Below, piece by piece: positions 12,244 to 28,428 of a DNA stretch of 34,396 nucleotides. The notes under the pieces are model-generated. The model made no database searches and was not told the origin of the DNA. It saw only the letters and a list, made by a program, of their open reading frames with translations. Position numbers and translations under genes: made by a program. Each line of letters starts with the position of its first letter. Positions within the stretch are counted from its first letter, which is position 1. This DNA is from Acidobacteriota bacterium. GTDB taxonomy: Bacteria; Acidobacteriota; Terriglobia; Terriglobales; SCQP01. The stretch lies in the NCBI GenBank assembly GCA_027451805.1, contig DAIDIF010000200.1, positions 1 to 34,396 on the forward strand. The letters are read 5' to 3'.

Positions 12244-12486
12244 CTACGCCGCCGGCGGGCTCGCTTTCAGGATCGCCAGTAGAAACATCACGATGCCGGC
12301 CGCCACCAGCGGCAGGCCGATCAGCAGGAACGCCATGAACGCCAGCGGGTGTATCCAGAGGAAACTGACGAGCTGCGCCACCAGTCCCGCCGCCACCAGC
12401 GCTGCGGCGACGCGGATGCGCCGCTCGATCAGGTGATTGCGGGGCGCCGCCGGTGCGCTAGGGCTTGGGCTTCCAGAAGCTGGCAT
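12244..12486 (-). CDS. Small two-helix membrane protein, last gene of the cytochrome operon
   Basis: An 80-residue protein with a proline/serine-rich N-terminus, a basic stretch (HLIERRIR), and two hydrophobic helices at about residues 25-45 and 49-73 (VAAALVAAGLVAQLV and FMAFLLIGLPLVAAGIV). The start ATG 12486 lies inside the 3' end of the tetraheme cytochrome gene, overlapping it by 29 bases. AAGGA lies eight bases before it, so translational coupling is likely. No known family is recognised. Its place directly after the NapC-like gene suggests an accessory or assembly role at the inner membrane, which is inference from position only. Confidence 0.65.
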   Translation of the reverse strand: MPASGSPSPSAPAAPRNHLIERRIRVAAALVAAGLVAQLVSFLWIHPLAFMAFLLIGLPLVAAGIVMFLLAILKASPPAA

Positions 12487-13090
12487 ATCCCAGATCCTTG
12501 ATGTCGTGCACGGTGTCGTGGCAGCCGCTCGAGAGGCACGATTTTTGGTCGCTCAAGATCGCGGCCATCAATCCGGGCGTCTTGTTGTGGTTGGGCTCGG
12601 TCATGAACGCCCGCATACCCTCGTGGCAGTGTAGGCACTCGCGGTTGTTGTAGGGGTGGTAGAGCCGGATCGAAGCCGGCTTGGGGACGGTGCCCAGATA
12701 CTCGACGTACATGTGGTGCAGTCCCTCGAGCTTGGCGTCCATCGGGCCGAACAGGGTGTAGGTGGTGTGGCAGGTGTAGCAGGCGTGGCCGGTGGGCACC
12801 AAATGGTTCTGGTAATGCACCGCCGGGATGAAGCTGGGGTCGTCCACCATCAGGCTGCGTCCGTAGTCCTGCATCACGTGGCAGCTTAGGCAGAACCGGG
12901 TGGATTCGGCGCGGCTCATCTGCGCGGAGAAGCCGCCCCAGCTCGCCATCACCGGCAGGATGAACAACACCAGGAACGCCAGCACCCGCCCCGGCGCATT
13001 GCGCGTCAGCTCGCTTTTGATCGCCAGCAGCAGCGTCAGCACCGCCGCCAGCGCGGTAAACGCCACTCCCAGCCAGATCGGAATGTTCAT
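12458..13090 (-). CDS. NapC/NirT (CymA-like) membrane-anchored tetraheme cytochrome c
   Basis: The 210-residue protein begins with two hydrophobic segments at about residues 5-24 and 36-52. Its cytochrome domain has four haem sites: CLSCHVM (Cys67-Met73), CYTCH (104-108), CLHCH (152-156) and CLSSGCH (185-191). The first site shows the CxxCHxM signature of the NapC/NrfH/CymA quinol dehydrogenases, where the methionine can serve as haem ligand. The last is a CX4CH motif, unusual here but known in tetraheme cytochromes c3. Such proteins take electrons from menaquinol at the inner membrane and pass them to periplasmic cytochromes. With the decaheme cytochrome, beta-barrel and monoheme cytochrome encoded just upstream, a CymA-like donor role is the most likely. 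The gene starts 12 bases after the monoheme cytochrome stop, and no strong ribosome site is visible. Confidence 0.88.
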   Translation of the reverse strand: MNIPIWLGVAFTALAAVLTLLLAIKSELTRNAPGRVLAFLVLFILPVMASWGGFSAQMSRAESTRFCLSCHVMQDYGRSLMVDDPSFIPAVHYQNHLVPTGHACYTCHTTYTLFGPMDAKLEGLHHMYVEYLGTVPKPASIRLYHPYNNRECLHCHEGMRAFMTEPNHNKTPGLMAAILSDQKSCLSSGCHDTVHDIKDLGYASFWKPKP

Positions 13091-13102: not shown

Positions 13103-13483
13103 TCAGTGCTGCGTCGCCAGCGAGCGGTAATACTCCACCAGCGCCTTGATCTGCGCTGGCGTGAACTGGTCGGAGAAGCCGTTCATGTAGGCGCCTTTGC
13201 CCTTGGTCGCGATCTGGATCATCTGGGCTTCGGAGTACTTCTTCACCGTCTGGGCCACCGGCTGCACCTTGTCCTTGTGCCCTTTGACGGTGTGGCCGGA
13301 ACCGTCGCGCGCATGGCAGGTGGCGCACTTGTTGAGAAACACGTCGCGGGCGTTGAAGCCGCCCTGGGCGCGCGCCCCGGGCAGCGTCCGCCCCGCCGCC
13401 GGCGCGCCGGCCATCAGGCCCGCCGCCAGCAGCGCCGTGCCTGCCGCGCTCGCCGCCGTCACAACCCAATTCCGCAAGCTCAT
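13103..13483 (-). CDS. Monoheme c-type cytochrome (class I, periplasmic)
   Basis: A 126-residue exported protein with a long N-terminal signal region (MSLRNWVVTAASAAGTALLAAGLMAG, cleavage around residues 26-40). It has one haem-binding motif, NKCATCHARDGSG (Cys53, Cys56, His57). The C-terminal half has the class I fold markers: AYMNGF supplies a candidate distal ligand Met100, and FTPAQIKALVEYYRSL is the usual closing helix. It probably shuttles electrons in the periplasm between the NapC-like protein and the decaheme cytochrome. AGGAGG sits eight bases upstream of the ATG. The gene starts 12 bases after the beta-barrel stop and ends 12 bases before the NapC-like start, which places it firmly within the operon. 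Confidence 0.92.
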   Translation of the reverse strand: MSLRNWVVTAASAAGTALLAAGLMAGAPAAGRTLPGARAQGGFNARDVFLNKCATCHARDGSGHTVKGHKDKVQPVAQTVKKYSEAQMIQIATKGKGAYMNGFSDQFTPAQIKALVEYYRSLATQH

Positions 13484-13495
13484 CGCAATCGCCTC

Positions 13496-15544
13496 CTAAA
13501 AGCGGTGCGTCCAGCGCAGCGTGAACAGCGTTGCGCCGAAATTGTTGCCGGTTACGATCTGTTCGATGTAGTACGTCCGCGTAAGATCGGCGGACAACTT
13601 GCCGATGACCGGAAAGTCATAGAACACCGTGCCGGTGGCGTACGGCCAAGTCACCGGGCCATAGGCCGGCGGCAGGTCGTTGGTGATCGCACCGGTGCCG
13701 CTGGTGTGGTCCCAGTTGCCAGTAAACTGCAGGCCGAACTGCTCCAGCGGCTGCCACTGCACGCCCGCCTGCCAGACATGGTCAATCTCCTGGTCGCGCA
13801 GCGTGTTCGCCAGCGGCGGCGTTCCGACGTGGTAGTCGATGTTGCCCCGCGCCAGGATTCCGTCGTAGCTGAAGCCGCCGTAGAGCGAGAGTTGGTCGTT
13901 CACCCGATAGTTGAGCAGCGTGGCATTGGCCTGCATGCGGTCGTGATAGTTGGCGTCGAGCAACTGGCTGCTGGACAGGCGCAGCGTGTTGTGCAGCGTG
14001 AAGCCGCCGCCGACGTCATACTTCAGCGCCAGCATGCCCTCGGTCTGGGTGTGGGGCGAGATGGCGGTGTAGGAGGAGCCGTTGTCGAAGGTGCGCAGGT
14101 CGCCGCGCAGGCTGAGCCGCTGCCAGGGCTGGAAGTAGGCGCTGAGCTCGGGAACCACGGTGTTGGTGCGCAGCGTCAGCGCGGGATCAGCCACGCCGCC
14201 GGATACCGACTCCACATCGGTCTTCAACACCTGCACGCCGGGCGAGATCAGCAGCGAGGGCCGCGGCGTGAACACCATGCGCGCGTCGAAACTGCTGATG
14301 CCGTTCATCCACAGGATCGCGGTGTTGCCGTTGCTCGCCAGCGGCGCGCCGTCAAACAGTCCGGCGAACGCGCTCATGTTGTCTTCTGTCGAGCGGGTAT
14401 AGCGGTAGTCGGCATCCACCGACCACCAGGGGTTGATCTTCCAGGTCAGCCCTTGCGCCGCCACCTGCTGCGGCTCGCTCACGTTCGCGCGCGCGCCCTG
14501 GGAGATCGAATAGGGCGCGAACGCCGTCAGTTTGGAACTGGTGGGCGCGATGCCGTTGAAGGCTTCGTCGTAGCTGGCCGGTCCGCTAAAGCGCTCGTAC
14601 AGGTAGCTGCCGCGCAGGTCGACCGCGCCCCACACTTGGCCGGTGTAGGAGAAGTCGCTGATCGGCGTGGTCAGTTGGCGGAACTGGCTCATGGAGAAGC
14701 TCTTTAACGGCGTATCCACGGCGGTCGCGCTGCCGGTGTTGATGCTGATCTGGCCCGCGGTCAGATTGTTGAACGTCATTGCGTTGGTCAGCGTCTGATA
14801 GCCGAGCGCGTAATGGAACGTCCACCGCCGCAGCAGCGTGTAATCCATCGAGCCGGTGAAGCGGTCGGCGATGTCATTGGCTGGAGCGTACAACAAATAG
14901 GGGGTTTGGCCCGAGAAGAACCCCCAGGTGGGGTAAGCCTGCCCCATAAAGCTCGGCGTCATCGGCGTGATCGTCGTGCCGTTGTCGCTGGTGTGGTAGT
15001 ACTGCAAGCCGAAGCGCAGATTACGAGTGGCGTAGATCTGAAAGTTGAGCGTGCCGAATTTGCGCACCGTGGACCATTGGTGCGCGCTGGTCAGCCCCGG
15101 CACCCCGCCCGGCAGAATCACGTTCTGGTTGGGCGCATAGATGAAGTAGCTCTGCGACCACTGTGCGGTGAGCGCGTAGAGGCCGTCCTTGGAGACGTTG
15201 AGCTGCGCCGTCGGGAACGGGTCGCCCCCCAGGCCGCTCGCGGTAAGGGTGTAGTGGTCGGCGAACTGGTGCGGCGCGGTCGCCTCCCCGAACAGGTTGA
15301 AGTCCATCAGCCGCGGCCCCGAGCGCAGGTTCAGCAGCTCCAGGTACATCGGTTCATAGCCGCTGGTGCTGGCGTAGCGTTCGCCCAGCGTGACCGAGCC
15401 CTGGTTGGAGAAGGAGAACGGAACTTCGGCCACCGGCGCGGGCGCCGCCGGCGAAGCCAGCGCCGCCCTACTCTGAGCCGCCGCGGCCCCCCCCAGGACC
15501 GCCAGTGCCAGACCGGTCAGGACACAACGATTGCGTAAGGACAT
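13496..15544 (-). CDS. MtrB/PioB-like outer-membrane beta-barrel of a porin-cytochrome conduit
   Basis: A 682-residue protein with a signal peptide (MSLRNRCVLTGLALAVLGGAAAAQ). The rest consists of many short alternating amphipathic strands rich in Tyr, Phe, Trp, Ser and Thr (for example FGTLNFQIYATRNLRFGLQYY and WSVDADYRYTRS), and the chain ends in phenylalanine (LRWTHRF), the usual closing signal of outer-membrane barrels. Length and strand density fit MtrB/PioB, the sheath that holds the decaheme MtrA cytochrome in the outer membrane. The decaheme gene lies immediately upstream, 14 bases away. No cysteine occurs in the mature protein, so the CxxC pair of Shewanella MtrB is absent. Homology to MtrB itself is inferred from type and neighbourhood rather than from a strong motif. 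The start at 15544 is chosen for the signal peptide and a GAGAGG ribosome site; the frame stays open further upstream without meaning. Confidence 0.85.
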   Translation of the reverse strand: MSLRNRCVLTGLALAVLGGAAAAQSRAALASPAAPAPVAEVPFSFSNQGSVTLGERYASTSGYEPMYLELLNLRSGPRLMDFNLFGEATAPHQFADHYTLTASGLGGDPFPTAQLNVSKDGLYALTAQWSQSYFIYAPNQNVILPGGVPGLTSAHQWSTVRKFGTLNFQIYATRNLRFGLQYYHTSDNGTTITPMTPSFMGQAYPTWGFFSGQTPYLLYAPANDIADRFTGSMDYTLLRRWTFHYALGYQTLTNAMTFNNLTAGQISINTGSATAVDTPLKSFSMSQFRQLTTPISDFSYTGQVWGAVDLRGSYLYERFSGPASYDEAFNGIAPTSSKLTAFAPYSISQGARANVSEPQQVAAQGLTWKINPWWSVDADYRYTRSTEDNMSAFAGLFDGAPLASNGNTAILWMNGISSFDARMVFTPRPSLLISPGVQVLKTDVESVSGGVADPALTLRTNTVVPELSAYFQPWQRLSLRGDLRTFDNGSSYTAISPHTQTEGMLALKYDVGGGFTLHNTLRLSSSQLLDANYHDRMQANATLLNYRVNDQLSLYGGFSYDGILARGNIDYHVGTPPLANTLRDQEIDHVWQAGVQWQPLEQFGLQFTGNWDHTSGTGAITNDLPPAYGPVTWPYATGTVFYDFPVIGKLSADLTRTYYIEQIVTGNNFGATLFTLRWTHRF

Positions 15545-15558
15545 GGCCGCCTCTCGGG

Positions 15559-16620
15559 TTAGTGCAGCAGGGTTGGGTCGGCGTTGGAACCGTGGACCGC
15601 AATGTGGCAGCGAGTGCAGTCGCCGCCGGTCTGGAAGCCCAGCCGGCCGTGCGGCACCTGCGCCTGGGCATGAAAGCCGGTGTGGCATTCCAGGCAGATG
15701 AAGCGGGTCTGGCGCCGCACCAGCATGAAGTGGTTTACGCTGCCGTGGGGATTGTGGCAGCCGACGCAGCCCACGACGGAAACCGCGGGATGCTCGTACA
15801 CGAACGGTCCCTGCACCTCGATGTGGCATTTGGTGCAGGCGTTGAACATGGCTGCGTTCAGCTGATGGCTGGCGGTGATGGTGCCGTGCGGGGTGTGGCA
15901 GTTGGTGCACTGCATCAGCCCTTCCTGGACGCGGTGATGGAAGGGCAGTGCGAACTTGGCCTGGATGTTCTGGTGGCAGCCATAGCACAACTCCGGCTGC
16001 GGCTGCTTCAGTTGTCCGTCATGCAGCCATGCCTGCGCCACGGTCAGTTGCGGCACCTGGTAGACCGCGGTCAGCGGGCGCGGCAGCGGTTTCTCGTCGG
16101 CATTGGTAATCGCCTCGACCAGGTGAGCCGAGTGGCAACTGTTGCACGCCACCCCGTGCTGCATGTGGGCGGAGACATCGAAGAACTGCTGCTGTTTGCT
16201 GGTGACGTGGCACTGCAGGCAGCGCGCCGCCACCTGCTTGGGGTTGGCGGTGCGGAAGTCGAAGATCAGCTTCGCCGCCGCCAGCGCCTTGGCGTCGCTG
16301 CCGCGAGCGGCGTCTTCCGCTTCCACATGTGCGCGGTCGGGACCATGGCACATGGCGCAGCCGCCGACCTGCCTGTCCGCCGGAATCGGCAGCTTGGCGT
16401 GCGCCGTCTGCTGAAACTCCAGATATTCCGGCCGATGACAGTCTTCGCACACCTTGTCGCTGGGAACGTAGAGTTGGGAATTGTAGGCTGGCGTATGCCA
16501 AGCCACCGAAGGCGGGGCCGGCAGCACGGGCTGCTTCTGTCCCCATGCCGCCAGCGCCAGCGCCAGCGCCACACCCGCCACCCTCCAGCCCCGCCGACTG
16601 CCGCTCAGTGTCTTTGCCAT
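15559..16620 (-). CDS. Decaheme c-type cytochrome of MtrA/DmsE type
   Basis: The 353-residue product has a signal peptide (MAKTLSGSRRGWRVAGVALALALAAWG) and exactly ten CxxCH motifs: CEDCH, CAMCH, CLQCH, CNSCH, CYGCH, CTNCH, CTKCH, CVGCH, CLECH and CTRCH, with first cysteines at 58, 88, 134, 159, 212, 238, 262, 285, 309 and 335. Length and ten haems match MtrA, DmsE and PioA, periplasmic wires that thread into an outer-membrane barrel. Extra histidines spaced for bis-His ligation (QHGVACN, HGTITASHQ, HGSVNH) support this. The mtrB-like gene follows 14 bases downstream. Together they would form a conduit across the outer membrane for electrons leaving or entering the cell. No extracellular MtrC-like decaheme protein is seen nearby. 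The start has an AGGGA about 14 bases upstream, a weak ribosome site; a CACTA-TCCC-TAGTG dyad (16625-16638) overlaps that leader. Confidence 0.93.
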   Translation of the reverse strand: MAKTLSGSRRGWRVAGVALALALAAWGQKQPVLPAPPSVAWHTPAYNSQLYVPSDKVCEDCHRPEYLEFQQTAHAKLPIPADRQVGGCAMCHGPDRAHVEAEDAARGSDAKALAAAKLIFDFRTANPKQVAARCLQCHVTSKQQQFFDVSAHMQHGVACNSCHSAHLVEAITNADEKPLPRPLTAVYQVPQLTVAQAWLHDGQLKQPQPELCYGCHQNIQAKFALPFHHRVQEGLMQCTNCHTPHGTITASHQLNAAMFNACTKCHIEVQGPFVYEHPAVSVVGCVGCHNPHGSVNHFMLVRRQTRFICLECHTGFHAQAQVPHGRLGFQTGGDCTRCHIAVHGSNADPTLLH

Positions 16621-16676: not shown

Positions 16677-17366
16677 TCAGACTGTTGTTCGATGCCAGCC
16701 CTGCGCTTCGATCTCCACCAGCCGGGCGTGATCCCGCACTACCGCGCGCCCGCCGCGTACCGCCGCGATCCCGTTGCGCCGCCACTCCGATACCAGCCGG
16801 CTTACCGTCTCTCGCGCCAGCCCGCATTGCGCCGCGATCTCTTCGTGCCGCAGCGGCGGCCGGTGTCCGTCTTCCGCGGCCCACTCCAGCACGAAATGGG
16901 CCAGCCGCTGGGGCGCGCTGTCGGCCAAGCCCAGCGCCGCCAGCCGGTCCGCCATCTCGTTCCAGCTCCGGCTGAGCGCCTCCATTAATCCCTCCGCGGG
17001 ACGGCCTCCGGCACGCAACTGGGCGCGCAACTCCTGCTGCGTCACCCGGCGTACCGCTCCGGCGGTCACCATGATCGCCGTGGCCTGATACGGAAGGCCG
17101 AGCAGCGTCTCCGCCAGCCCGAGCGCCGCCCCCTGTTCGCACCACGCCAGCGTGAACGACCGTCCCGCGGCCGACAGGCGCTGCAGCGCCGTCCAGCCGG
17201 AATCCAGAAAATACGCGTTGAGGGCGGGCTCCCCGGCGCGGAAGAGCGCATCCCCCCGCCGCAGCGACATCGCTGCACGTGGCACCAGACTGACGCCCCA
17301 ATTCGGCGCCGCGTGCTCACCAACTCCTGCCCCGTCTGATTTCAGCTTAGGCAGCGCACTGCTCAT
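16677..17366 (-). CDS. Crp/Fnr-family transcriptional regulator
   Basis: A 229-residue protein. The N-terminal part (about 25-115) is a cyclic-nucleotide-binding-like beta-roll with AMSLRRGDALFRAGEP and FLDSGWTALQRLS. A dimerisation helix follows (about 120-150), then a winged HTH with LRHEEIAAQCGLARETVSRLV (173-192); RETVSR is the recognition-helix core typical of Crp/Fnr proteins. It has only two cysteines (76 and 181) and lacks the N-terminal cysteine cluster of FNR, so an oxygen-sensing Fe-S cluster is unlikely; the ligand is unknown. The start at 17366 is chosen because GGAGG lies directly upstream; the frame opens further at 17459 without support. It precedes the decaheme cytochrome gene by 56 bases on the same strand and probably belongs to, and controls, the cytochrome operon. 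Confidence 0.9.
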   Translation of the reverse strand: MSSALPKLKSDGAGVGEHAAPNWGVSLVPRAAMSLRRGDALFRAGEPALNAYFLDSGWTALQRLSAAGRSFTLAWCEQGAALGLAETLLGLPYQATAIMVTAGAVRRVTQQELRAQLRAGGRPAEGLMEALSRSWNEMADRLAALGLADSAPQRLAHFVLEWAAEDGHRPPLRHEEIAAQCGLARETVSRLVSEWRRNGIAAVRGGRAVVRDHARLVEIEAQGWHRTTV

Positions 17367-17667
17367 GGGGTTCCTCCGTGTGCGACGCCGGCCGGCCGGC
17401 GGTGGTTTGACGTTCGGGGCAGAAACTGCCACCGAAGCGCCGGCACTGCCTTCGCGCACCCTTTCCGCTGCCGGGTGCCCGCGTTCTTGCCGGAGTGGTA
17501 AACAACATAGCTAGCGTCTGCTCCATTTCCGCCCTTCACCAATTCGGAAGCACATCGTCTGCCATGCGCATCCGCTTGTTTTTCTAGGTGCATGCCAGTG
17601 TCGTCCGAACGGAGTTGCGCCCTGCCACGCACTCGCTGCGCAAAATACCCCACAAATGCGGGTGAAA
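17367..17667. other. Spacer between the NtrC-type regulator and the Crp/Fnr gene
   Basis: These 301 bases hold no convincing gene. They contain a candidate sigma-54 promoter at 17548-17564 facing the Crp/Fnr gene. A TTGCGC-N17-GCGCAA inverted repeat at 17615-17643 is a possible activator site or end-of-gene hairpin. The leader from the predicted start near 17537 to the Crp/Fnr ATG is about 170 bases. Confidence 0.5.
17548..17564 (-). promoter_or_regulatory. Candidate sigma-54 (-24/-12) promoter for the crp-cytochrome operon
   Basis: On the minus strand the sequence reads TGGCAGACGATGTGCTT. The invariant GG and GC are exactly ten bases apart, and TGGCA plus TGCT match most of the consensus TGGCACG-N4-TTGCW; the mismatches are the C at the end of TGGCAC and the first T of TTGC. 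It faces the Crp/Fnr gene and lies about 105 bases downstream of the gene for an NtrC-type activator, which is the class that works with sigma-54. Motif seen; use in the cell inferred. Confidence 0.5.
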
Positions 17668-19128
17668 TCAGCCGTTCTGGCTGTGATCGCCGCTCTGGCC
17701 CTGGTCGCCGAGATGATACTTCTTCATCGCGTAGCGGATCGTATCCCGGCTGGTATCCAAAAGCCGTGCTGCCTGGCTCTGATTGCCGTCGCATTGCCGG
17801 AGCGCCTCCGCCACCAGTTGCTTTTCCACTCCTTCCAGCGACGTCCCGCCGCGTGGAATTCGTAGCCGCGGCAGGGATCGGCCATTGGGCTGCGCTTCCC
17901 ATGCGGCTTCGCTCTCCGGCGCCGGCTCGGTGGGAAACGCAGTTGCGGTGGAAATGTCGCTCTCCGGACCGAAAGGCAGGCTGGCGGCACGCAGCAGCGG
18001 TCCATCTTCCAGGATCATCGCCCGTTGGATGGCGTTCTTCAGTTCGCGGATATTTCCCGGCCAGGAGTACTGCGCCATCATCTCTACCGCGGCGGGCGCC
18101 AATCCCTCGATCTTCTTGCCGAAGCGGCGGTTGTACTGCTCGATAAAGAACGCTGCCAGCGCCGGCACGTCTTCCGACCGGCTGCGCAACGGCGGAATGA
18201 AAATCGGGATCACCATGAGGCGATAGTACAAATCGGCGCGGAATCGCCCGGCCTGCGCCGCTGCCTCCAGATTGCGGTTGGATGCGGCAATCATGCGGAC
18301 GTTGACTTGGATGTCACGCAGTCCGCCCAGCCGCCGCAGCGTCTGGTCCTCGAGCGTGCGCAGCAACTTGCTCTGCAAGGCCAGCGGCATCTCGCCGATC
18401 TCGTCCAGAAAAATCGTTCCCCCGTCGGCGACTTCGAACAGGCCCTTTTTCATCGCCTTGGCATCGGTGAAGGCGCCCTTTTCGTGGCCGAAGAGCTCCG
18501 CCTCGAGCAGCGTTTCCGGGATTGCCGAGCAGTTCACCGGTACGTAGGGCCGGTCGCGCCGGGCCGAGTGCTGGTGAATATACTGCGCCAGCAAGTCCTT
18601 GCCGGTGCCGCTCTCCCCCTGCAGCAGAATCGCATTGGCCTCGCTCGCCGCCGCCCGCCGCGCGTAGTCCATGACTTGGCGCATGATCGCCGAGTTGCCG
18701 ATGACGTCGCGCTCGCGCCACGTCTGCGCCTGCTGCCGCAGCGTCGCCACCTCCTGCCGCAGCCGGCCTGCCTCCAGGGCGTTGGCCATCGTCACCTGCA
18801 ACTCGTCGAATCGGACCGGTTTGACCAAGTAGTCGTACGCGCCCTGCCGCAGGGCAGTCTTCACGTCTTCCACTTTCGGGTCGGCGGTGATCAGGATGAC
18901 GGGGCCGGAGAAGAGTTCACGCCGCATCTCCGCCAGCAGGTCCACACCATTGCCGTCCGGCATGCGCACGTCCAGCAGCACCAGATCGTAGCTGTCGGCG
19001 CGCAACCGCGTCCGCGCCTCGGCGCAATCGGCCGCTTGCGCGCACTCATAGCCCCACTCCTCGCATCGCCGGCTCACCGACCAGCGCAGCAGGCTCTCAT
19101 CGTCAATGATCAGTATCTTAGGCTTCAT
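17668..19128 (-). CDS. NtrC-type sigma-54-dependent response regulator
   Basis: A 486-residue protein with three modules. The receiver domain (1-115) has the acidic pair Asp9-Asp10, phosphoacceptor Asp53 in LLDVRMPDGNG and Lys103 in LVKP. The AAA+ domain (about 140-370) has Walker A GESGTGKD (171-178), Walker B GGTIFLDEIGEM (from 237), the sigma-54-contacting loop as GAFTDA (218-223, where GAFTGA is usual), and YSWPGNIRELKN. The C-terminal Fis-type HTH (about 450-475) reads SQAARLLDTSRDTIRYAMKK. It would turn on sigma-54 promoters after phosphorylation by the histidine kinase encoded just upstream; the two genes overlap by 11 bases. The nearest candidate target is the promoter in front of the Crp/Fnr gene, making it a likely master switch of the cytochrome operon. 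Confidence 0.94.
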   Translation of the reverse strand: MKPKILIIDDESLLRWSVSRRCEEWGYECAQAADCAEARTRLRADSYDLVLLDVRMPDGNGVDLLAEMRRELFSGPVILITADPKVEDVKTALRQGAYDYLVKPVRFDELQVTMANALEAGRLRQEVATLRQQAQTWRERDVIGNSAIMRQVMDYARRAAASEANAILLQGESGTGKDLLAQYIHQHSARRDRPYVPVNCSAIPETLLEAELFGHEKGAFTDAKAMKKGLFEVADGGTIFLDEIGEMPLALQSKLLRTLEDQTLRRLGGLRDIQVNVRMIAASNRNLEAAAQAGRFRADLYYRLMVIPIFIPPLRSRSEDVPALAAFFIEQYNRRFGKKIEGLAPAAVEMMAQYSWPGNIRELKNAIQRAMILEDGPLLRAASLPFGPESDISTATAFPTEPAPESEAAWEAQPNGRSLPRLRIPRGGTSLEGVEKQLVAEALRQCDGNQSQAARLLDTSRDTIRYAMKKYHLGDQGQSGDHSQNG

Positions 19129-21040
19129 GGACGGCGTTGGCCGCTCCTTCCGTCTTTTGTGCCGGTCCCTGAATCGGCAACCGCACGGTGAAGCACGTGC
19201 CCACGTCCGCTTGCGTGCTCACCTCGATGCTCCCGCCGTGCAGTTGCGCAATCCGCAGGGACTGCGGCAGGCCCAGGCCGTTGCCTTTGCCGCCTTTGGT
19301 GGTGTAAAACGGCCGGAAGATTTTCGACAGCGCCGCCGCCGGAATCCCCGGCCCGTTGTCGCGCACCCGAATCTCGGCCCGGCCGAACTCGTCGAGCGCT
19401 GTGTGGATGCGCACCACGCCGCCCTCGGGCGCCGCATCCGCCCCGTTGAGCGCCAGATTCAGCACCATGCGTTGCACCTGATCCTCGTCATGCGTAATCG
19501 GCGGCAGCTCCCCCGCCTCAAAGATCACCTGGACTCGGCGCGGCGCCGCCGTGCGCGCCGCCAGGTGCGACGCCATCCGCACCGTGGCGTTCAGATCGGT
19601 CGCGCGGAAATCGGGGGCCCGCGGGCGCGCATAGTGCAGCAGGTCTTCCACAATCCCTCCGATTCGGCTGATCTGGCGCAGCACTTCCGCCATGATCTCC
19701 TTGTGTTCGCCGCTGCTCTGGTCCCGCAGCACCTCGAGCGCTCCCGCCATGCCCGCGAGCGGGTTCTTGATCTCATGCGCCAGCCCCGCCGCCACTTCCC
19801 CGAGCGTGGCCAAGTGCTGCGCCTGCTCCATTTGCAGCGTATGTTGGCGGGCCGCCTCCACCTCCTCGCGCTTGCGGGCGGTGAGATCGCGCATGACCGC
19901 GGTGACCAGCAGGCCCGATTCCAGCCGCAGCGGGCTGAGGCTGATCTCCACCGGGAACTCACTGCCGTTCTTGCGCTGCGCATACAGCTCCAGCCCCGTG
20001 CCCATGGGCCGTGCCTTCGGGTTGTGGCTGTAGGCGGTACGCTGCGCGGCGTGTGCCTCCCGCAGCCGCGGCGCCACTAGCATCTCCACCGGTTGTCCCG
20101 CCAATTCGTCACGGGTGTAGCCCAGCAACTCGGTCACCATTCGATTGCTAATCACGATCCGGCCGCCTTCGTCCACGATGACCAGCGCCTCGGGCGCCGC
20201 TTCCACCAAGCTGCGGAACTTCAATTCGCTCTGCCGCAGCGCCAACTCCACCTGCAACCGCTCCCGCATCAGGCCGTACTGATGGCCCAACTCCGCCAGC
20301 AACTTCTGCCAGAGTTCGCTGGCCGATTCCTCCGGCCCGCCGTGCCAGGCCAGAATGCGGGACACGCGCCCGCGCGCCGCCACCGGCAGCGTCAGCCCGA
20401 AGCCGGCGTCCGCTTCCGCGCCGGCTTGCACCTCGCCGGTTTCCCACGCCCGGCCCAGCAGCCCTTCGCCCGGACGCAAGTAGCGCCGCTGGACCGCGGA
20501 TGTGCCCGGCTGCCAGGCGGTGCGGTAAGCGCTTTGGCCGCCTTCCACGTCCCACACCTCACCCCAAGCCCAGCCGCCGACTTCGCCGACCAGACGAAGC
20601 AACGCCGTCTCGGCGACGCGCCAGTCCTCGGTCGTCGCAAACAGGTCGCTGGCCGCCAGCCGCAGCTTATGCCGCACCTCCGCCGCTGCACGTTGTTGCA
20701 GGTCGGCATTCACTTCCAGGATTCCCGCCGGCTGCCCGCGCTCGTCGCGGAACAGCGCCCACTGGCTGTCCGCCACGAACCACGTCCCGTCCCGCCGGCA
20801 CTGCCGCAACCTTCCCCGCCATTCCCCCTGCTCCAGCACCTGGCGCTCAATCTCCGCACGCGGAGCGGGGAACTCGGTCTGCAGCAGCTCATGGCTGAAC
20901 TGCCCCAACGCCTCCTCGGCGCTCCAGCCGTAGGTGCGCTCCGCGCCCACGCTCCAATAGGAAATTCGACCGCCCGGCAAATGGAGAAAGACAGCATCCC
21001 CGGTCCGGCTCTCGGGCACGCTCTGGGCTTGGATGGCCAT
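19118..21040 (-). CDS. Cytosolic PAS-domain sensor histidine kinase
   Basis: About 640 residues without a transmembrane helix or signal peptide, so a soluble sensor. Residues 1-115 form a PAS domain (WSVGAERTYGWSAEEALGQ, ending FRDERGQPAGILEV). Residues about 130-265 look GAF-like (LRPGEGLLGRAWETGEVQ, GFGLTLPVAARG). Residues about 270-390 form a second PAS domain (FRSLVEAAPEALVIVDEGG, RKNGSEFPVEISLSPL). The HisKA box has LAHEIKNPLAGMAGALE with phosphoacceptor His422. The ATPase part has the N box NLALNGADAAPEG, D box RDNGPGIP and G box GKGNGLGLPQS. This is an NtrB-like kinase with a likely redox, ligand or gas signal. The start is taken as ATG 21040; TTG 21043 is the alternative. It overlaps the NtrC-type regulator by 11 bases and starts 31 bases after the stress-protein gene, suggesting one operon. 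Confidence 0.93.
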   Translation of the reverse strand: MAIQAQSVPESRTGDAVFLHLPGGRISYWSVGAERTYGWSAEEALGQFSHELLQTEFPAPRAEIERQVLEQGEWRGRLRQCRRDGTWFVADSQWALFRDERGQPAGILEVNADLQQRAAAEVRHKLRLAASDLFATTEDWRVAETALLRLVGEVGGWAWGEVWDVEGGQSAYRTAWQPGTSAVQRRYLRPGEGLLGRAWETGEVQAGAEADAGFGLTLPVAARGRVSRILAWHGGPEESASELWQKLLAELGHQYGLMRERLQVELALRQSELKFRSLVEAAPEALVIVDEGGRIVISNRMVTELLGYTRDELAGQPVEMLVAPRLREAHAAQRTAYSHNPKARPMGTGLELYAQRKNGSEFPVEISLSPLRLESGLLVTAVMRDLTARKREEVEAARQHTLQMEQAQHLATLGEVAAGLAHEIKNPLAGMAGALEVLRDQSSGEHKEIMAEVLRQISRIGGIVEDLLHYARPRAPDFRATDLNATVRMASHLAARTAAPRRVQVIFEAGELPPITHDEDQVQRMVLNLALNGADAAPEGGVVRIHTALDEFGRAEIRVRDNGPGIPAAALSKIFRPFYTTKGGKGNGLGLPQSLRIAQLHGGSIEVSTQADVGTCFTVRLPIQGPAQKTEGAANAVHEA

Positions 21041-21071
21041 CAACCTTTAGTATGGTCCAAGCTGCCATGGG

Positions 21072-21953
21072 CTACTTCCGCGCTACCAGCACCGGGCACG
21101 GAGCCTTTTGCAGCACCCGGTAGGCGGTGTTGTGGGCGCCATGCAGCAAGGGATGCTCGAACGCCCGGCTCGCGCCGATGGCGATCAGATCGGCATTCTC
21201 TTCCGCCGCCGCCTGCAGGATTATGTCGGCGGGTTGACCAAGCCGGATGCTGGTCTCCGCCATGTCCCAAAAACGCGCATCCGGGGGCAGCATGGCCCAC
21301 ATCCGCGCCTCGAGGCTCCGGGTATGCTGCGGCCAGTCTTCCTTCGCCGCCTCTTCCCAACTGGCAACATGCAGCAGGTGCGTGCCGGCGTTGCCGATCG
21401 CCGTCAGCGTGATCGCTGCCGACAGCGCCGCCTTGGCCGAGATGCTGAAGTCGGTGGCGGCCACCAATTGACGAAAGGGCAGCGCCGGTGGCGCGGCCTG
21501 CGGCCCCAGCACCAGCACCGGCGCCTGCGCGATGCGCAGGATCTCCGCCGTGGTCGAGCCCAACGCCAGCCTGGCCAATCCGCCCCGGCCGCGACTCGCC
21601 ACCACGATCACGTCGGTGTGGACTTCCCGCGCCAGGGAGTTGATCCGCGCCGAGATCTCATTGCGTTCGAGGTGGGTCGCTGCCTCCAGGCCCGCCATCG
21701 CCGACCGCTCGGTCAGCGCCTTCAGTTCCTTCTCACTTTCGTGCTCGAGATCGCTATAAATATCGCCGTAGGTCTCCGGCACGGGCAGTCCGTAATCCCG
21801 TTGCTGCACGAAGTGCACCAAGTGCAGCCGCGCCCGGAACTGCCGCGCCAAGTCGGCGGCGAAGTCGCATGCCGCCACCGAGGACGGGGAAAAATCCGTC
21901 GGCGCCAAAATGCTGCGTATCGTCGCCGGTATCGGTTTCAATGCTGTTGCCAT
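21072..21953 (-). CDS. Universal stress protein with two Usp domains
   Basis: A 293-residue tandem UspA protein. Domain 1 (about 10-150) starts with RSILAPTDFSPSSVAACDFA and contains the nucleotide-binding loop SRGRGGLARLALGSTTAEIL, followed by APVLVLGP. Domain 2 (about 155-293) starts with RQLVAATDFSISAKAALSA and ends with APCPVLVARK; its loop GASRAFEHPLLHGAHNTAYRV is degenerate in the glycine spacing, so it may bind ATP poorly. Tandem Usp proteins often respond to redox or energy stress. The gene stands 31 bases before the kinase gene on the same strand, which suggests that it belongs to the regulatory module. AGGGG lies ahead of ATG 21953. The leader contains repeats described separately. 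Confidence 0.93.
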   Translation of the reverse strand: MATALKPIPATIRSILAPTDFSPSSVAACDFAADLARQFRARLHLVHFVQQRDYGLPVPETYGDIYSDLEHESEKELKALTERSAMAGLEAATHLERNEISARINSLAREVHTDVIVVASRGRGGLARLALGSTTAEILRIAQAPVLVLGPQAAPPALPFRQLVAATDFSISAKAALSAAITLTAIGNAGTHLLHVASWEEAAKEDWPQHTRSLEARMWAMLPPDARFWDMAETSIRLGQPADIILQAAAEENADLIAIGASRAFEHPLLHGAHNTAYRVLQKAPCPVLVARK

Positions 21954-22245
21954 GGCCAGCCCCTACTGCTTCCCCTGCAAGCCATGGACCGCCGGTACCT
22001 GGGCGTTTTCGTGATCCCACTCGCGTTTTCTGGGTAATTGCACCCAGGCCTGGGTGTTTTTCCCCTATGGACTGCCCTGAGAATGCGGAGCGGAACGAAG
22101 CCGTTGTTGGCACCGATGCCAGCGCCAGTGATACGCAAAAGTCCCCCCGCCTAAACTCGCCGAGATCGAAAGGGTTGGGTAAACCCCCATCCACCGGTTC
22201 GGGTGGGTAGCCCTAGCCGCAGCTCGACGTTACCCTCGACGCAGG
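21954..22245. other. Divergent spacer between the stress-protein gene and comEC
   Basis: These 292 bases separate uspA-like (minus) and comEC (plus) and hold no gene I can support. The half near the stress-protein gene carries phased repeats (21998-22061). The half near comEC has GGGTT-GGGT-AAACCC and CCACC-GGTTCG-GGTGG stem-like elements around 22171-22207. No clear -35/-10 pair was found for either gene. Confidence 0.5.
21998..22061. repeat. Cluster of short direct and inverted repeats in the stress-protein leader
   Basis: CCTGGGCGTTTTC (21998-22010) recurs as CCTGGGTGTTTTT (22049-22061). GCGTTTTC occurs at 22003-22010 and 22023-22030, exactly 20 bases apart. CTGGGT (22030-22035), ACCCAG (22042-22047) and CTGGGT (22050-22055) allow two mutually exclusive stems. 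The core CACCCAGGCCTGGGTG (22041-22056) is a perfect 16-base palindrome followed by five T on the plus strand. It may be an operator cluster or alternative hairpins in the leader. Confidence 0.55.
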
Positions 22246-24900
22246 ATGCAGCCTCTCTTCTACGCCGCGCTGGCGTTTGCGGGCGGCATCGCCGCCGCTG
22301 CCGCCGGACCGGCCTGGCTGGCGCCCTTCGCCGTTCTCTGGCTCGCCGTCGTCTCCGCTCTCGCCGCCGTCCTGCTTCGCCGCCGCGCCGCGGCGGCCGT
22401 GCTTGCCTTGTTGGTGTGCGCGGCCCTGGGCGGCTGGCGCGCCCGCCAGGTGTTGGCGGCGCCCGCGGCGGCGACCTCGCTCGAGCGCGCTGCCCGGCGC
22501 CTGCAAACCACGCCGCGCAGCCGCATCTTCCTTACCGGCTACTTGCGTGACACGCCCGAGCTGCTCTGGGATCGCGGGCAGCCCTCCGCCATCCGTCTCG
22601 ACCTTGCCGCGGTCACGCTTGCACCGTACAAGGCCTCGGCCAGAGTGGCACCCGTCTCCGGCGGCGTGCGCCTGTATGCCTACCCTCCGGTCCATCCGCC
22701 CCGCGGCGCGCGGTGGCAAGCCGCGCTGTTGCGGCTCCGGGCCGGCGACGGTCTCGGCGCCTCCGTGCATCTGCGACCGCTGCCCCGCTACCGCGATCCC
22801 GGCGTCGCCGACTTCGCCGCCGCGGCGCGCCGCCAGGGCATCGCACTCACCGCCACGCTGCCGCTGGAGGGCTGGCAGCCATGGCCGGCGGTGGGCGGCG
22901 GCGTGGCCACGCGTCTGCGCGCCGCGATCTGGCGCGGGCTCAGCCGCCGCCTCGACCAGCTCGTGCCGCCCCGCGCCGCGCCCCGCGCCAACGCCCTGCT
23001 GCGCGGCATGCTGCTGGGCGACGTCGCCCGCCTGGACGACGCCACCCGCACGGACTTCCAGATTGACGGCGTCTACCACCTGCTGGTGGTCGCCGGCCTG
23101 CACATCGGCATCCTGGCCGCGCTGCTGTACTGGCTCTGCCGCCGCCTGCGCCTTCCGCCGCTGGCCGCTTCCGCCGTCACGCTGCTGCTGCTCGCCGCCT
23201 ACGCCTGGGACATCGCCGGCCGCACGCCCACCCTCCGCGCCCTGCTCATGCTGGCGCTCTACTTCGGCGCCCGCGTCTGGTATCGCGAGCGCCAGGCGCT
23301 CAATGCCGTCGGCGGCGCCGGATTGATTCTGCTCGTCTGGCATCCGCTCGATTTGTTCGCGCCCGGCTTCGAGCTGTCGCTGGGCGCCGCCACGCTGCTT
23401 GCCGGCATCGCGCTGCCGCTGCTGCTCAAGACCTCGCATCCCCTGCGCCGGGCCATCCGCCAACTCGCCAACCCCGGCTATGACGAGGCCTTTCCGCCGC
23501 GGCTGGCGCAGTGGCGCCTCGATCTGCGCTCCGCCGGCTGGCCTCGCCTCCTTCCGGTTCTGCTCCGCATCCTGCTGGCGGTCTATGACGTGATCGTGAT
23601 CTCCCTTGTGCTCCAGCTGGGCTTCGCCGCCTTCAACGTGGTGTATTTCCACCGCGCCAGCCCCTGGTCGGTGGTCGCCAACGCGCTGCTCGTGCCCGCC
23701 GCCGGCGTCCTGATTCCGCTGGCCTGGCTGGCGCTGGCCGCATCGTCCATCGGCGCATTCACCGTGGCCGCCGGCGCGTTGCTCGCCGCCGCGGCGCGCG
23801 GCCTGCTCGCGGTGGCCGCCGCGCTGGCGCGCTGGCCACTGGCCAACTGGCGCGCGCCCTCGCCGCCGGGCTGGTTCCTGGTTGTCTTCGCCGCCGCCGT
23901 TGCCGCCTGGCTCGTGGCCGCCGGCCGCTGGGCAGGCGCGCGCCCCAGCCCGCCCAAGCGGGTGCCGGCTCCGGGCCCGGAGCCGCCCCAGCCCCCCATG
24001 CGCGGCTGGCAGCCGTTCGCCGCGATCACCGGCATCATGGCCATCTGCGCCCTGGTGGTGTCGCTGGCGCCCTTCCCGCCGCGCTTGCCGCCCGGCCTGG
24101 CGGCGACCATCCTCGATGTCGGCCAGGGCGACTCCATCCTGGTCTCCTTTCCTGACGGGCGCACGATGCTGGTGGATGCCGGCCCGCGCAGCGCGCACTG
24201 GGACAGCGGGGAGGAGATCGTGGCGCCATTCCTCTGGTCGCTGGGCCTGCACCGGCTCGACGCGGTGCTGCTCACCCACGCGCACAACGACCACCTGGGC
24301 GGGATGGCGACGGTGGTGCGCGACTTTCATCCCGGCGAAATCTGGCTCAGCCGCTCGCTGCCGTCCCGCGACCCCGCTCTGCGCTCCTTCCTGCGCCTCG
24401 TGCGGAAGCCGCGCGCCGGCCGTCCAGTGAAGATCCGGCGCCTGGCCGCCGGGGATGCCTTCCTCGCCGGCGCCAGCCGCCTCGCCGTTCTGCTGCCGCC
24501 GCCCAACGCCTTGGCCGGGCCCAAGCCCAGCAACGACGACTCGCTGATGCTGCGCGTGAGTTGGGGCGGCGCGGCCATGCTGCTGGCCGGCGATGCCCAG
24601 GCCGCCGGCGAGAGCTGGCTGCTGCGCCAGCACGAGCCGCTCGCGAGCGCGGTCCTGAAGGTCGGCCATCACGGCAGCAACAGCTCTTCCAGCGCCGCCT
24701 TCCTGGCGGCGGTCCGTCCTCAGGTTGCCGTGATCTCGGCGGGCAGGGCCAACCTCTATGGCCTGCCGTCCCCGGCGGTGCTGGCGCGGCTGCGGCAGGC
24801 CGGTGCGCGCGTCTTCCGCACCGACCGCAGCGGCGCCATCCAGTGCCGCCTGCAGGGCGGCTGGCTGCGCGTCCTGCTCTTCCGCCGGCCGCCGGCTTAG
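22246..24900 (+). CDS. comEC: ComEC/Rec2-family DNA internalisation protein
   Basis: An 884-residue membrane protein with the complete ComEC order. Two or three N-terminal helices (1-70) lead to a soluble OB-like region (about 75-215, with FLTGYLRDTPELL). The competence domain (about 235-560) has many helices and the signature blocks GMLLGDVARLDD, VYHLLVVAGLHIGIL and RTPTLRALLM. The C-terminal metallo-beta-lactamase-like domain begins at LDVGQGDSILV (about 624) and has the metal motif THAHNDHLGG (about 677-686) and VGHHGSNSSSS (about 805). ComEC forms the inner-membrane channel for transforming DNA, and the lactamase-like domain is thought to degrade the non-transported strand. The metal motif looks intact. 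A proline-rich linker (near 575) lies before the last soluble domain. It overlaps the convergent HD-GYP gene by four bases. No other competence gene is in the window. Confidence 0.95.
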   Translation: MQPLFYAALAFAGGIAAAAAGPAWLAPFAVLWLAVVSALAAVLLRRRAAAAVLALLVCAALGGWRARQVLAAPAAATSLERAARRLQTTPRSRIFLTGYLRDTPELLWDRGQPSAIRLDLAAVTLAPYKASARVAPVSGGVRLYAYPPVHPPRGARWQAALLRLRAGDGLGASVHLRPLPRYRDPGVADFAAAARRQGIALTATLPLEGWQPWPAVGGGVATRLRAAIWRGLSRRLDQLVPPRAAPRANALLRGMLLGDVARLDDATRTDFQIDGVYHLLVVAGLHIGILAALLYWLCRRLRLPPLAASAVTLLLLAAYAWDIAGRTPTLRALLMLALYFGARVWYRERQALNAVGGAGLILLVWHPLDLFAPGFELSLGAATLLAGIALPLLLKTSHPLRRAIRQLANPGYDEAFPPRLAQWRLDLRSAGWPRLLPVLLRILLAVYDVIVISLVLQLGFAAFNVVYFHRASPWSVVANALLVPAAGVLIPLAWLALAASSIGAFTVAAGALLAAAARGLLAVAAALARWPLANWRAPSPPGWFLVVFAAAVAAWLVAAGRWAGARPSPPKRVPAPGPEPPQPPMRGWQPFAAITGIMAICALVVSLAPFPPRLPPGLAATILDVGQGDSILVSFPDGRTMLVDAGPRSAHWDSGEEIVAPFLWSLGLHRLDAVLLTHAHNDHLGGMATVVRDFHPGEIWLSRSLPSRDPALRSFLRLVRKPRAGRPVKIRRLAAGDAFLAGASRLAVLLPPPNALAGPKPSNDDSLMLRVSWGGAAMLLAGDAQAAGESWLLRQHEPLASAVLKVGHHGSNSSSSAAFLAAVRPQVAVISAGRANLYGLPSPAVLARLRQAGARVFRTDRSGAIQCRLQGGWLRVLLFRRPPA

Positions 24901-26010: not shown

Positions 26011-28428
26011 TCAGTTGCTCCGTCCCGGCCTGGGCGGCTGTTCCATCAGGAACTCGTGCGGTGGTTTCGCCCCCATCAGGTAGCGCACGAAATAATCCCA
26101 TCGCCGCCGCATCATGTAGGGGGCGTCGGCGCCGTAGCCGTGCGGTTCGTTGGGCAGCAGGATCAGATCGAAGTCCTTATTCGCCTTGATCAGGGCGTTG
26201 ACCACCATCAAGGTGTTGTTCATCGGCACGTTGTTGTCCATCGTGCCGTGGGCCAGCAGCAGGTGCCCCTGCAAATTCTTCGCCACGCCTTCGTTCGACT
26301 GCCCGGAATAGGTAGTCTTGCCGTCGGCAGTGGGGACATCCAAGCCCTGGTAGCGCTCGCCCCAGTCGTCCTCGTACTCGCGCTGGTCGTGGTTTCCGCT
26401 CTCCGCCACGCCGACCTTGAAGAAGTCGGGATAGCGGAACATCGCATCCGCGGTGGCATCGCCGCCGCCCGAGTGACCATAAATGCCGGCTTGGTTGATG
26501 TCAATGAAGGGGTAGCGCGCCGCCAGCTCCTTCATTCCCGCCACCTGGTCGGGCAGCGTGTTGTCCCGCATGTCACCGTAGTAGGTGTCGTGGAACTTTT
26601 CGCCACGCCAGGGCGTTCCCATGCCATCAAGCTCCACTACGACAAACCCCAGGCTGGCCAGCGCCTCCGCGTCGCCGCGGCTGGCCTGGAAATTACGCGT
26701 GCCGACGCTTCCAGTCTGGGGGCCGGGGTAAATGTGGTTGATGATCGGGTACTTGCGTCCCGGATCGAGATGGAAGGGCGTATACATCAACCCGTAAATA
26801 TCGGTCCTTCCGTCCCTTCCCTTTACTCTCACCTGAATTGGGGGCTTCCAGCCCGTCGCCAGCAGTCGTGCAATGTCGGCTTTCTCCAGCCGCATCACCA
26901 ACTTGCCGCTTGCGGTGCGCAACACCGTGACTGGCGGAACGTCGGGAGTGGAGTAGGTGTCGAGGAAGTATCGGCCATCGGGCGCGAAATCAACGTTGTG
27001 GTTCGCGTTTTCCGGCGTCAGCAATTGCTGCCGGCGGCCGTCAAGTGAGGCGCGAAAAAGGTGCTGGTAATACGGATCGCCGCCGCCCGGCAGCGCGGTG
27101 GCGATGAAGTACACCTGGCGTGCCTTTTGATCCACCCGCACCACGCTGTCCACGTTGCCGTCACGCAGGGAGGTGACCTGGTTCATCAGCTTGCCCGTGG
27201 TCAGGTTGTAGAGAAACAATTGCCCAAGGTTGTCGCGGTGCGAATACCAGAGGAATGCGTTGAGCCGCGGCAGATAGCGGAACGTGGTGCCATCCTGCCC
27301 GCCCTCGTACTGGGTTGCGACCTTCTCTTCGTAGATGGTCCGCACGTCGCCGGTGGCGGCGTCGGCGATGCGCACGTGCTCGTCCTTGTGATCGCGCGAG
27401 GTGGAGACGAACGCCAAGTGGTTGCCGCGCGGGCTCCACTGCACGTCCTGGTCGGGCCCGAACGCCACGTTGTCGGAAATCGTCGAGCGGTGGTAATCGG
27501 GCGGCATCTTCAGCCGGATCACCTTCAGGGCCTGTCCCTGCACCGGCAGGTTGATGATCACCCGGTGAATCATGATCACGTTCTTGTCGCCGGGCAGGGG
27601 GTAGATCTGGGTGGTGAGCTTGGGATGGCCGATCATCACCGGCACAAGGTAGAGCTTGCCGACCTTGCGCTGGTCCTGCTGGTAGGTGGCGATCTTGGTG
27701 GAGTCGGGGGACCAGAGCACGATGGCGCGATTGCTCGAGGTCCAACCGGCGTTATCGGTGGCGTAGCCGAAGTTCTTCACACCATCGAAGGTGAGCTGGG
27801 TGTCCTGGTGGGTGACGAGGTTGCGCATCCACAAATTCCAGTTGCGGATGAAGACCGCGCGCTTGCGGTCGGGCGAGATGGAGAGTGGCTCCTTGGCACC
27901 GCGGCCGCCGCTGAAAGCAAAGCCGCGCCCGCTGAACCCGCGTCCGCCGCCCGGTTCGATCGGCGCCGGCCGCGCGTCCGGCTGGCAGGCCGCGCCCGCG
28001 CGGTCGCAGCGCCAGCGCTTGCGGAAACTGGTGAAGGAGACGTAGTGGCCGTCGCGCGAAAAGGCCAGCGCCGTCAGCGCCAACTTGCCCGGCGCGACCT
28101 CGTGCCCCGAAGCCCGCGACAGCGCCGCCGCCAATTTCACCGCGTCGAAGGCCGGTTCCCGCGTTGCCCGCGCCGGATTGACCAGCACGTACCGGTTGCC
28201 CGCGGGCGTGGTGTAAGCAAACCACAGCCGCCCGTCCGGCAGCCATCCCGGCCGGATGTTCAATCCGAACACCAACTTCGCGGTGTTGAATCCCAGCCAC
28301 TGTTCCGCCTGGCGGTACTGCGCTGCGGTGATCGTCTTGGGACGGCTGTTGCCGGGCGGCGTTTGCGCCCCAGCCGCGGTCAGCATGCCCAGGGCGAGGG
28401 CCCCGCCCAAAGTCCGTAGGGGGCGCAT
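26011..28428 (-). CDS. Secreted S9 peptidase, dipeptidyl-peptidase IV-like
   Basis: An 805-residue exported protein with a signal peptide (MRPLRTLGGALALGMLTAAGAQ). Residues about 60-540 form a DPP-IV N-terminal beta-propeller with repeated strand blocks (LAFSRDGHYVSFTSF, ISPDRKRAVFIRN, LWSPDSTKIATYQQD). Residues about 550-790 form the alpha/beta-hydrolase domain with catalytic Ser653 in GHSGGGDA, Asp731 in HGTMDNNVP and His763 in NEPHGYG, so the triad is complete. Such enzymes remove dipeptides from peptide N-termini outside the cytoplasm, supporting growth on peptides. A glycine-rich insertion (GGGRGFSGRGFAFSGGRG, near 165-182) interrupts the propeller. The start is supported by AAGGAGA about six bases upstream. 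The gene is divergent from the CBS-like gene across about 100 bases. Confidence 0.94.
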   Translation of the reverse strand: MRPLRTLGGALALGMLTAAGAQTPPGNSRPKTITAAQYRQAEQWLGFNTAKLVFGLNIRPGWLPDGRLWFAYTTPAGNRYVLVNPARATREPAFDAVKLAAALSRASGHEVAPGKLALTALAFSRDGHYVSFTSFRKRWRCDRAGAACQPDARPAPIEPGGGRGFSGRGFAFSGGRGAKEPLSISPDRKRAVFIRNWNLWMRNLVTHQDTQLTFDGVKNFGYATDNAGWTSSNRAIVLWSPDSTKIATYQQDQRKVGKLYLVPVMIGHPKLTTQIYPLPGDKNVIMIHRVIINLPVQGQALKVIRLKMPPDYHRSTISDNVAFGPDQDVQWSPRGNHLAFVSTSRDHKDEHVRIADAATGDVRTIYEEKVATQYEGGQDGTTFRYLPRLNAFLWYSHRDNLGQLFLYNLTTGKLMNQVTSLRDGNVDSVVRVDQKARQVYFIATALPGGGDPYYQHLFRASLDGRRQQLLTPENANHNVDFAPDGRYFLDTYSTPDVPPVTVLRTASGKLVMRLEKADIARLLATGWKPPIQVRVKGRDGRTDIYGLMYTPFHLDPGRKYPIINHIYPGPQTGSVGTRNFQASRGDAEALASLGFVVVELDGMGTPWRGEKFHDTYYGDMRDNTLPDQVAGMKELAARYPFIDINQAGIYGHSGGGDATADAMFRYPDFFKVGVAESGNHDQREYEDDWGERYQGLDVPTADGKTTYSGQSNEGVAKNLQGHLLLAHGTMDNNVPMNNTLMVVNALIKANKDFDLILLPNEPHGYGADAPYMMRRRWDYFVRYLMGAKPPHEFLMEQPPRPGRSN

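Follow-up and report, generated by a model that had tools for sequence, protein, structure and literature searches.

A predicted sigma-54 promoter with tandem candidate activator sites upstream of a crp–multiheme cytochrome operon in Acidobacteriota

In the window, the whole 34,396-nt stretch of DNA analyzed here (contig C200 of a 3.16-Mb, 305-contig assembly), a crp–decaheme–barrel–cytochrome operon is preceded by a sigma-54 element which, we are largely convinced, is the −24/−12 box of the operon's promoter, driven by the adjacent NtrC-type regulator from tandem upstream sites. The box is present and conserved, it lies downstream of a motif shared with other promoters, and this motif recurs with a regular tandem spacing and coupled to sigma-54 boxes. 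In the control that we propose, a PAS kinase would phosphorylate the NtrC-type regulator encoded just upstream of the operon; the phosphorylated regulator would then bind tandem palindromes that precede the box by 73 and 95 nt, and its hydrolysis of ATP would open the RNA polymerase–sigma-54 held at 17549–17564, giving a transcript that would run from near 17538 through crp into the cytochromes. Two further operons are probable targets of this regulator: usp-kinase-ntrC, in which it is itself encoded, and a cupredoxin/one-heme porin operon located elsewhere in the genome. Control of the conduit, of its own operon, and of the cupredoxin-porin genes would make it a switch for outer-membrane electron-transfer proteins.

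The promoter element and the operon that it faces

The element (TGGCAGACGATGTGCT, 17549–17564, minus strand) was predicted from the sequence and has an exact GG-N10-GC arrangement, with GG at 17563–17562, GC at 17551–17550, and 10 bases between them; the base after it is T at 17548. It is located in the 301-nt gap bounded by the ntrC stop codon (17668) and the crp start codon (17366–17364), and points at crp. An earlier note on this DNA had described TGGCA-N8-TGCT at 17548–17564, between the gene for a sigma-54 activator and the crp–cytochrome operon and facing the latter. Its place, strand, orientation, and GG-N10-GC spacing are as described there, but the motif itself counts as TGGCA-N7-TGCT. 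Transcription would start near 17538, leaving a leader of ~170 nt before crp.

The box is imperfect, with neither the first T of TTGC nor the C and G after TGGCA, and the narrow consensus TGGCAC-N4/5-TTGCW has no match in the window. In the 3.16-Mb genome, TGGCA-N7-TGCW occurs 45 times, vs. 33 times for the reversed control pattern. When scored with a hand-written sigma-54 matrix, the element comes third among the sites of the 34-kb window; the probability of an equal site in a random stretch of 301 nt is ~0.0045 on one given strand and 0.009 on either strand. Taken by itself, the match is moderately above chance and only suggestive. The sigma factor needed is encoded in the genome (RpoN; PF04552, 198 bits).

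Conservation appears to be stronger evidence than the sequence match. Apart from the window's own genome, the whole gene arrangement was found only in G001, which belongs to the same genus; its Crp orthologue is 83% identical and its gene order is the same. The comparison of the GG and GC pairs in related genomes, proposed in the earlier note, gave a positive answer in this genome: both pairs are kept in the counterpart element (TGGCAGGCGATGTGCT, L009 7980–7995), which is identical in 14 of 16 columns. The two spacers are 57.7% identical, and the element falls inside their best 24-column block (21/24; permutation P = 0.010 for any block). Because it rests on one comparison, this evidence is not decisive by itself.

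The first gene after the promoter encodes a Crp-like regulator (16677–17366, minus strand; HTH_Crp_2 and cNMP_binding domains). The gap between crp and the first cytochrome gene is 56 nt, for which one transcription unit is the simpler explanation, and crp looks co-transcribed with the cytochromes. The genes that follow, all on the minus strand, encode a decaheme c-type cytochrome of the DmsE/MtrA family (15559–16620; 10 CXXCH motifs; TIGR03508 at 202.2 bits, cut-off 192.2; E = 1e-22 against PDB 6r2q_A), a predicted outer-membrane barrel that would be a divergent MtrB/PioB-like partner (13496–15547), a monoheme c-type cytochrome (13103–13483), and a multiheme cytochrome with weak NapC/NirT similarity (12458–13090). 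The barrel protein of the window has no MtrB/PioB profile match of its own, and its assignment comes from weak matches of its relatives: PF11854 is matched by 4 of 16 aligned sequences (best 1.7e-6) and TIGR03509 by two of the 16. The barrel alignments had no match among PDB sequences, and an AlphaFold model of the protein was discarded (mean pLDDT 24.9). The nearest named records with the same operon are Terriglobia/Acidobacteria MAGs.

The heme proteins of this operon probably move electrons across the outer membrane. Such a conduit function is supported in part by the gene content, namely the decaheme cytochrome scoring over its cut-off and the weak MtrB/PioB signal in the barrel family. 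Of the earlier suggestion that sigma-54 controls an extracellular electron transfer conduit, the promoter is supported and the conduit supported in part.

Tandem palindromes and the adjacent regulator

A 16-nt palindrome model was trained only on six promoters of cupredoxin plus one-heme porin operons of the family (score 74.4, vs. a mean of 55.6 and sd of 1.2 for shuffles). Over 34,381 positions of the window, its four best matches form two tandem pairs, one before usp-kinase-ntrC and the other before the sigma-54 promoter of the crp–cytochrome operon; among 2000 column-permuted models, none put all four best matches at both pairs, and eight put three. Before usp-kinase-ntrC are the best match (TGGGTAATTGCACCCA, 22031–22046, 19.05 bits), which points to autoregulation, and the third best (TGGGTGTTTTTCCCCT, 22051–22066, 12.31 bits). 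In the crp spacer, the proximal candidate site (TGCGCAAAATACCCCA / TGGGGTATTTTGCGCA, 17637–17652) is the second-best match (14.37 bits) and lies 73 nt upstream of the −24 box, and the distal one (CGGGTGAAATCAGCCG, 17659–17674) is the fourth best (9.60 bits), 22 nt from the proximal site and overlapping the ntrC stop codon. No strand is assigned to any of the four. The distal site is weak and poorly kept in G001, whose spacer site ranks first among the 9380 positions of its contig with only 9.5 bits. As separate observations, two other sigma-54-like matches in the window (24676–24691 and 26270–26285, both minus strand; 12.5 and 16.6 with the hand-written matrix) are inside ORFs with Pfam matches, and the palindrome model scan found no strong activator site near them.

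The tandem arrangement recurs beyond the window. A spacing of 20–22 nt, or two helix turns, was observed in 14 of the 24 close pairs (pairs 8–60 nt apart in the loci scanned). The cupredoxin-porin promoters of G006 and G013, held out from training, have tandem sites with TGGCCACACGCTTGCT and TGGCCACATGCTTGCT, respectively, 72 nt downstream, compared with 73 nt in the window. Site clusters not used for training were counted from 11 bits upward, a threshold that drops the distal window site and the cluster of contig C228 (10.4 bits). Of the 33 that remain, 16 are accompanied at 20–150 nt by a box facing away and two by a wrongly facing box; without L159 and L160, both chosen for pattern co-occurrence, the counts are 14/31 and 2/31. 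Six further places in whole genomes (L163–L168) were picked on the site alone, and a box is present at one of them, L163. A half-site, TTTCAC, was the first idea for the motif and was replaced by the palindrome. Helical phasing of the site-to-box distances was also dropped, being nonsignificant at 10.5 nt and reaching a simulated P of ~0.05 over a search of 10–11 nt.

The regulator gene (17668–19128) encodes a receiver domain (PF00072), a sigma-54 AAA+ domain (PF00158), and a Fis-type HTH (PF02954). It is accompanied by the genes of a PAS-containing histidine kinase (19118–21043) and of a universal stress protein with Usp domains (21072–21953), all three on the minus strand. No clean sigma-54 box was seen upstream of usp; there is a weak candidate with GG-N10-GC (CGGTCCATGGCTTGCA, 21976–21991, minus strand) and a rival one without the GC (TGGCAACAGCATTGAA, 21937–21952). 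The regulator is matched at E ≤ 1e-110 in 12 of the 14 family genomes, ten besides the window's having 61%–91% identity, and by these comparisons the pairing of kinase and ntrC goes far back in the family. In place of GAFTGA, the sigma-54 contact motif, the window regulator has GAFTDA, as do 28 of the 30 NtrC loci scanned, the window included; of the other two, one has GSFTDA and in one no motif was found. In the available text of two studies, a GAFTDA regulator of Desulfovibrio vulgaris, DVU2106, is listed with target operons (PMC4641369), and RpoN was not recovered in a pull-down with VfmH, which also has GAFTDA (PMC10714721). The variant is a reason for caution regarding activation through sigma-54.

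The orthologous operon in other families and alternative explanations

The barrel family was found in 45 of 399 genomes of the class. Upstream sequences were compared for 27 decaheme-gene regions (L099, L117, L119, the window, and G001 left out). The activator motif, at 9.5 bits or more, was detected in six of seven regions of family f3, the f1 genome G007, one of 14 in f90, none of three in f91, and one of two in f92, while shuffling leads one to expect 1.48 in the 27 regions. In each of the six motif-bearing f3 genomes, a GG-N10-GC element (a relaxed pattern, counted without a shuffle control) follows 40–86 nt downstream. The exact palindrome GTGA-N6-TCAC was observed in 7 of 14 f90 and three of three f91 regions (10/17 together) and in none of the f1, f3, and f92 regions. 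Some families thus appear to place this operon under CRP-type control and others under enhancer/sigma-54 control; related bacteria seem to have wired one heme-protein cluster to a different kind of regulator, and such a division of orthologous operons between CRP and sigma-54 offers a clean example of regulatory rewiring.

On balance, we lean toward a two-component/sigma-54 regulon for outer-membrane electron transfer in Terriglobia, in which the conduit has been rewired between sigma-54 and CRP-type control. Such a regulon would have an operator of about TGnGknAWTnmCnCA, in tandem 20–22 nt apart, and would cover the Mtr-type decaheme conduit in f1 and f3 and the cupredoxin plus one-heme porin in f1. 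CRP-type control would apply in f90 and f91, and the genus of the window would combine the sigma-54 switch with a crp gene. A simple picture is opposed by the f3 genomes, in which the best relatives of the window regulator are only 40%–45% identical, none of them a close orthologue. A degenerate recognition-helix pattern, RDALRYK(M/L)KK, derived from family relatives and such that it would miss the window regulator's own helix, was present in three of the seven f3 genomes (G487, near the operon, G576, and G632) and in none of the five f90/f91 genomes tested; in G632, the helix-bearing regulator is present and the activator site absent. A separate observation concerns L109 (~5283) and L112 (~5255), of G494 and G512, where TGGCACG-nTTn-GTGCTCA is kept upstream of the orthologous cytochrome gene (−364/−406), a strong sigma-54-like block in a region of 57% identity without the activator motif.

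Other explanations of the window spacer were considered. It is scarcely credible that the TGGCA...TGCT element is an operator and not a promoter box. It does contain a short inverted repeat, GCA-N7-TGC, and similar repeats, GCAC-N5-GTGC, are present at L109 and L112, but this symmetry is inherent in the sigma-54 consensus, the activator palindrome is another sequence, and the boxes recur downstream of the palindrome in one orientation. A chance match is very improbable; in that case crp and the cytochromes would owe their transcription to a sigma-70-type promoter or to read-through out of the usp-kinase-ntrC operon. The box is imperfect and a match in the 301-nt gap has a chance of ~0.5%–1%, yet the element is in the block best conserved with G001 and has tandem candidate activator sites at the usual enhancer distance. 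The simple sigma-70 consensus finds no promoter-like site in the gap, a weak argument, since that consensus may not suit this phylum. We also think it improbable that a real sigma-54 promoter is served by an enhancer-binding protein other than the adjacent NtrC. The genome does encode one or more other NtrC-type regulators (C273, 45% identical), and f3 carries the activator motif without a close orthologue of the window regulator. Against this, the best match of the motif in the window is upstream of this regulator's own operon, in three family genomes (G008, G005, and G010) the motif separates kinase-ntrC from the cupredoxin operon, and a comparison of ten family sequences shows a recognition helix that is for the most part conserved.

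It is unlikely, if less so, that a linear cascade is superimposed on the sigma-54 promoter, which would then make Crp for the activation of a separate cytochrome promoter. The exact GTGA-N6-TCAC site precedes the cytochrome gene in 13 of the 31 loci tested, with 0.23 expected (L119 was set aside for want of a cytochrome match, and L099 and L117 because a contig ends too close by), or in 11 of 29 without two duplicates (L040/L042 of L096/L097). In G001 the site is 34 nt before the cytochrome gene, in addition to the activator motif, and in G482 a Crp-like gene is also directly upstream. The window Crp has a RETV-type recognition helix, whose meaning we take from E. coli CRP. The cytochrome gene of the window, however, has no CRP-type palindrome before it, even with one mismatch; the 56-nt gap favors a single unit; and none of the 27 regions combines the activator motif with an exact CRP-type site. 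A close Crp orthologue was found in one genome, G001, of the 60 relatives searched, five others having 32%–33% identity. The cascade of the earlier note, from kinase through NtrC-like regulator, sigma-54 promoter, and Crp to the cytochromes, survives as far as a sigma-54 promoter under the adjacent NtrC, which agrees with the presence of RpoN, the conservation in G001, and the tandem sites; the step in which Crp acts on the cytochromes is judged unlikely, crp being apparently the first gene of one unit.

Related systems and other gene neighborhoods

Acidobacteriota are abundant in soil and peat; most of what is known about how extracellular electron transfer is regulated comes from Shewanella and Geobacter. 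In the Shewanella-type Mtr conduit, an operon of a decaheme cytochrome plus a barrel is under CRP. The window operon likewise has a decaheme gene with a predicted barrel gene, and CRP-type sites precede its f90/f91 orthologues; unlike the Shewanella type, candidate enhancer sites and sigma-54 boxes are found at the operon in the genus of the window, in G007, and in f3. According to the available text on Geobacter sulfurreducens, RpoN affects cytochromes of extracellular electron transfer, with a box consensus (TTGGCACGGTTTTTGCT) that resembles the boxes found here, and the electron-transfer genes whose expression changed had no RpoN element that could be detected, so that the effect was regarded as possibly indirect (PMC2725144). 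The window operon, in contrast, has a predicted box and activator sites directly upstream. A literature search on BccR in Geobacter found nothing. A closer likeness is the DVU3142-ohc octaheme cytochrome regulon of D. vulgaris, predicted by comparative genomics, in which, in the available text, the gene of an enhancer-binding protein is beside a multiheme cytochrome operon that has a sigma-54 promoter and sites for that protein (PMC4641369). DVU3142 is a one-component regulator with GAFTGA, whereas that of the window is two-component with GAFTDA, and ohc is a periplasmic and membrane complex, whereas the window encodes a predicted outer-membrane Mtr-type conduit together with crp (PMC4641369).

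Since RpoN-linked cytochromes are already described in the available texts on Geobacter (PMC2725144) and Desulfovibrio (PMC4641369), the "noteworthy regulatory design" of the earlier note has to be softened; what is new here is the operator, the regulon, and the unusual CRP/sigma-54 split. Little literature on Acidobacteriota with sigma-54/RpoN and electron transfer was found, and the portions available hold no description of such a regulon, which is not proof of absence. Because the operator, promoter form, and regulator are concrete, the regulon can be predicted in related genomes and tested in metatranscriptomes.

Elsewhere in the family, the neighbors of kinase-ntrC are electron-transfer genes; crp or cytochromes beside the pair were absent at the nine loci examined outside the window and G001. 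In G008, G005, and G010, kinase-ntrC is divergent from the cupredoxin operon, with palindromic sites between them, and in G005 and G010 Ric/ScdA-type hemerythrins are also adjacent. In G006, G013, and G011, the one-heme porin is upstream of kinase-ntrC. At L089 (5518–11629; G004, same genus), what follows the pair is not a conduit but an ORF containing a single CXXCH, together with narG/narH-type genes, a hint of an anaerobic-respiration signal.

Six genomes of the family, among them G001 and that of the window, have TTGGC-N8-TGC[AT] just upstream of the cupredoxin-porin operon; in these two and one more, the −12 part reads GTGC[AT] and so resembles the GTGCT of the crp element. The porin, of 440 residues, has a barrel-like body and a single heme motif at its N-terminal end (L091 443–1789 and L086 8–1333; P0002 and P0003). 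It had no Pfam or NCBIfam match, and its shape, in our estimation, recalls Cyc2. Three copies are present in the genome of the window, one of them with the cupredoxin, and there are also copies in G001 on other contigs. None of nine paralogous porin controls (L134, L135, L137–L139, and L141–L144) has a site plus a box facing the porin; in L134 and L137, a site plus a box faces the other way.

In the window's own genome, further places with a site plus a box are near a CusB/HlyD-YtkA gene (C159) and near a VWA/M48 region (C255). Finally, at L162 (3192–4427; C228 of the same genome), an activator site and TGGCATGCCGCGTGCA are just upstream of a fructose-1,6-bisphosphatase (FBPase_3) gene; the regulon may thus reach into central carbon metabolism.
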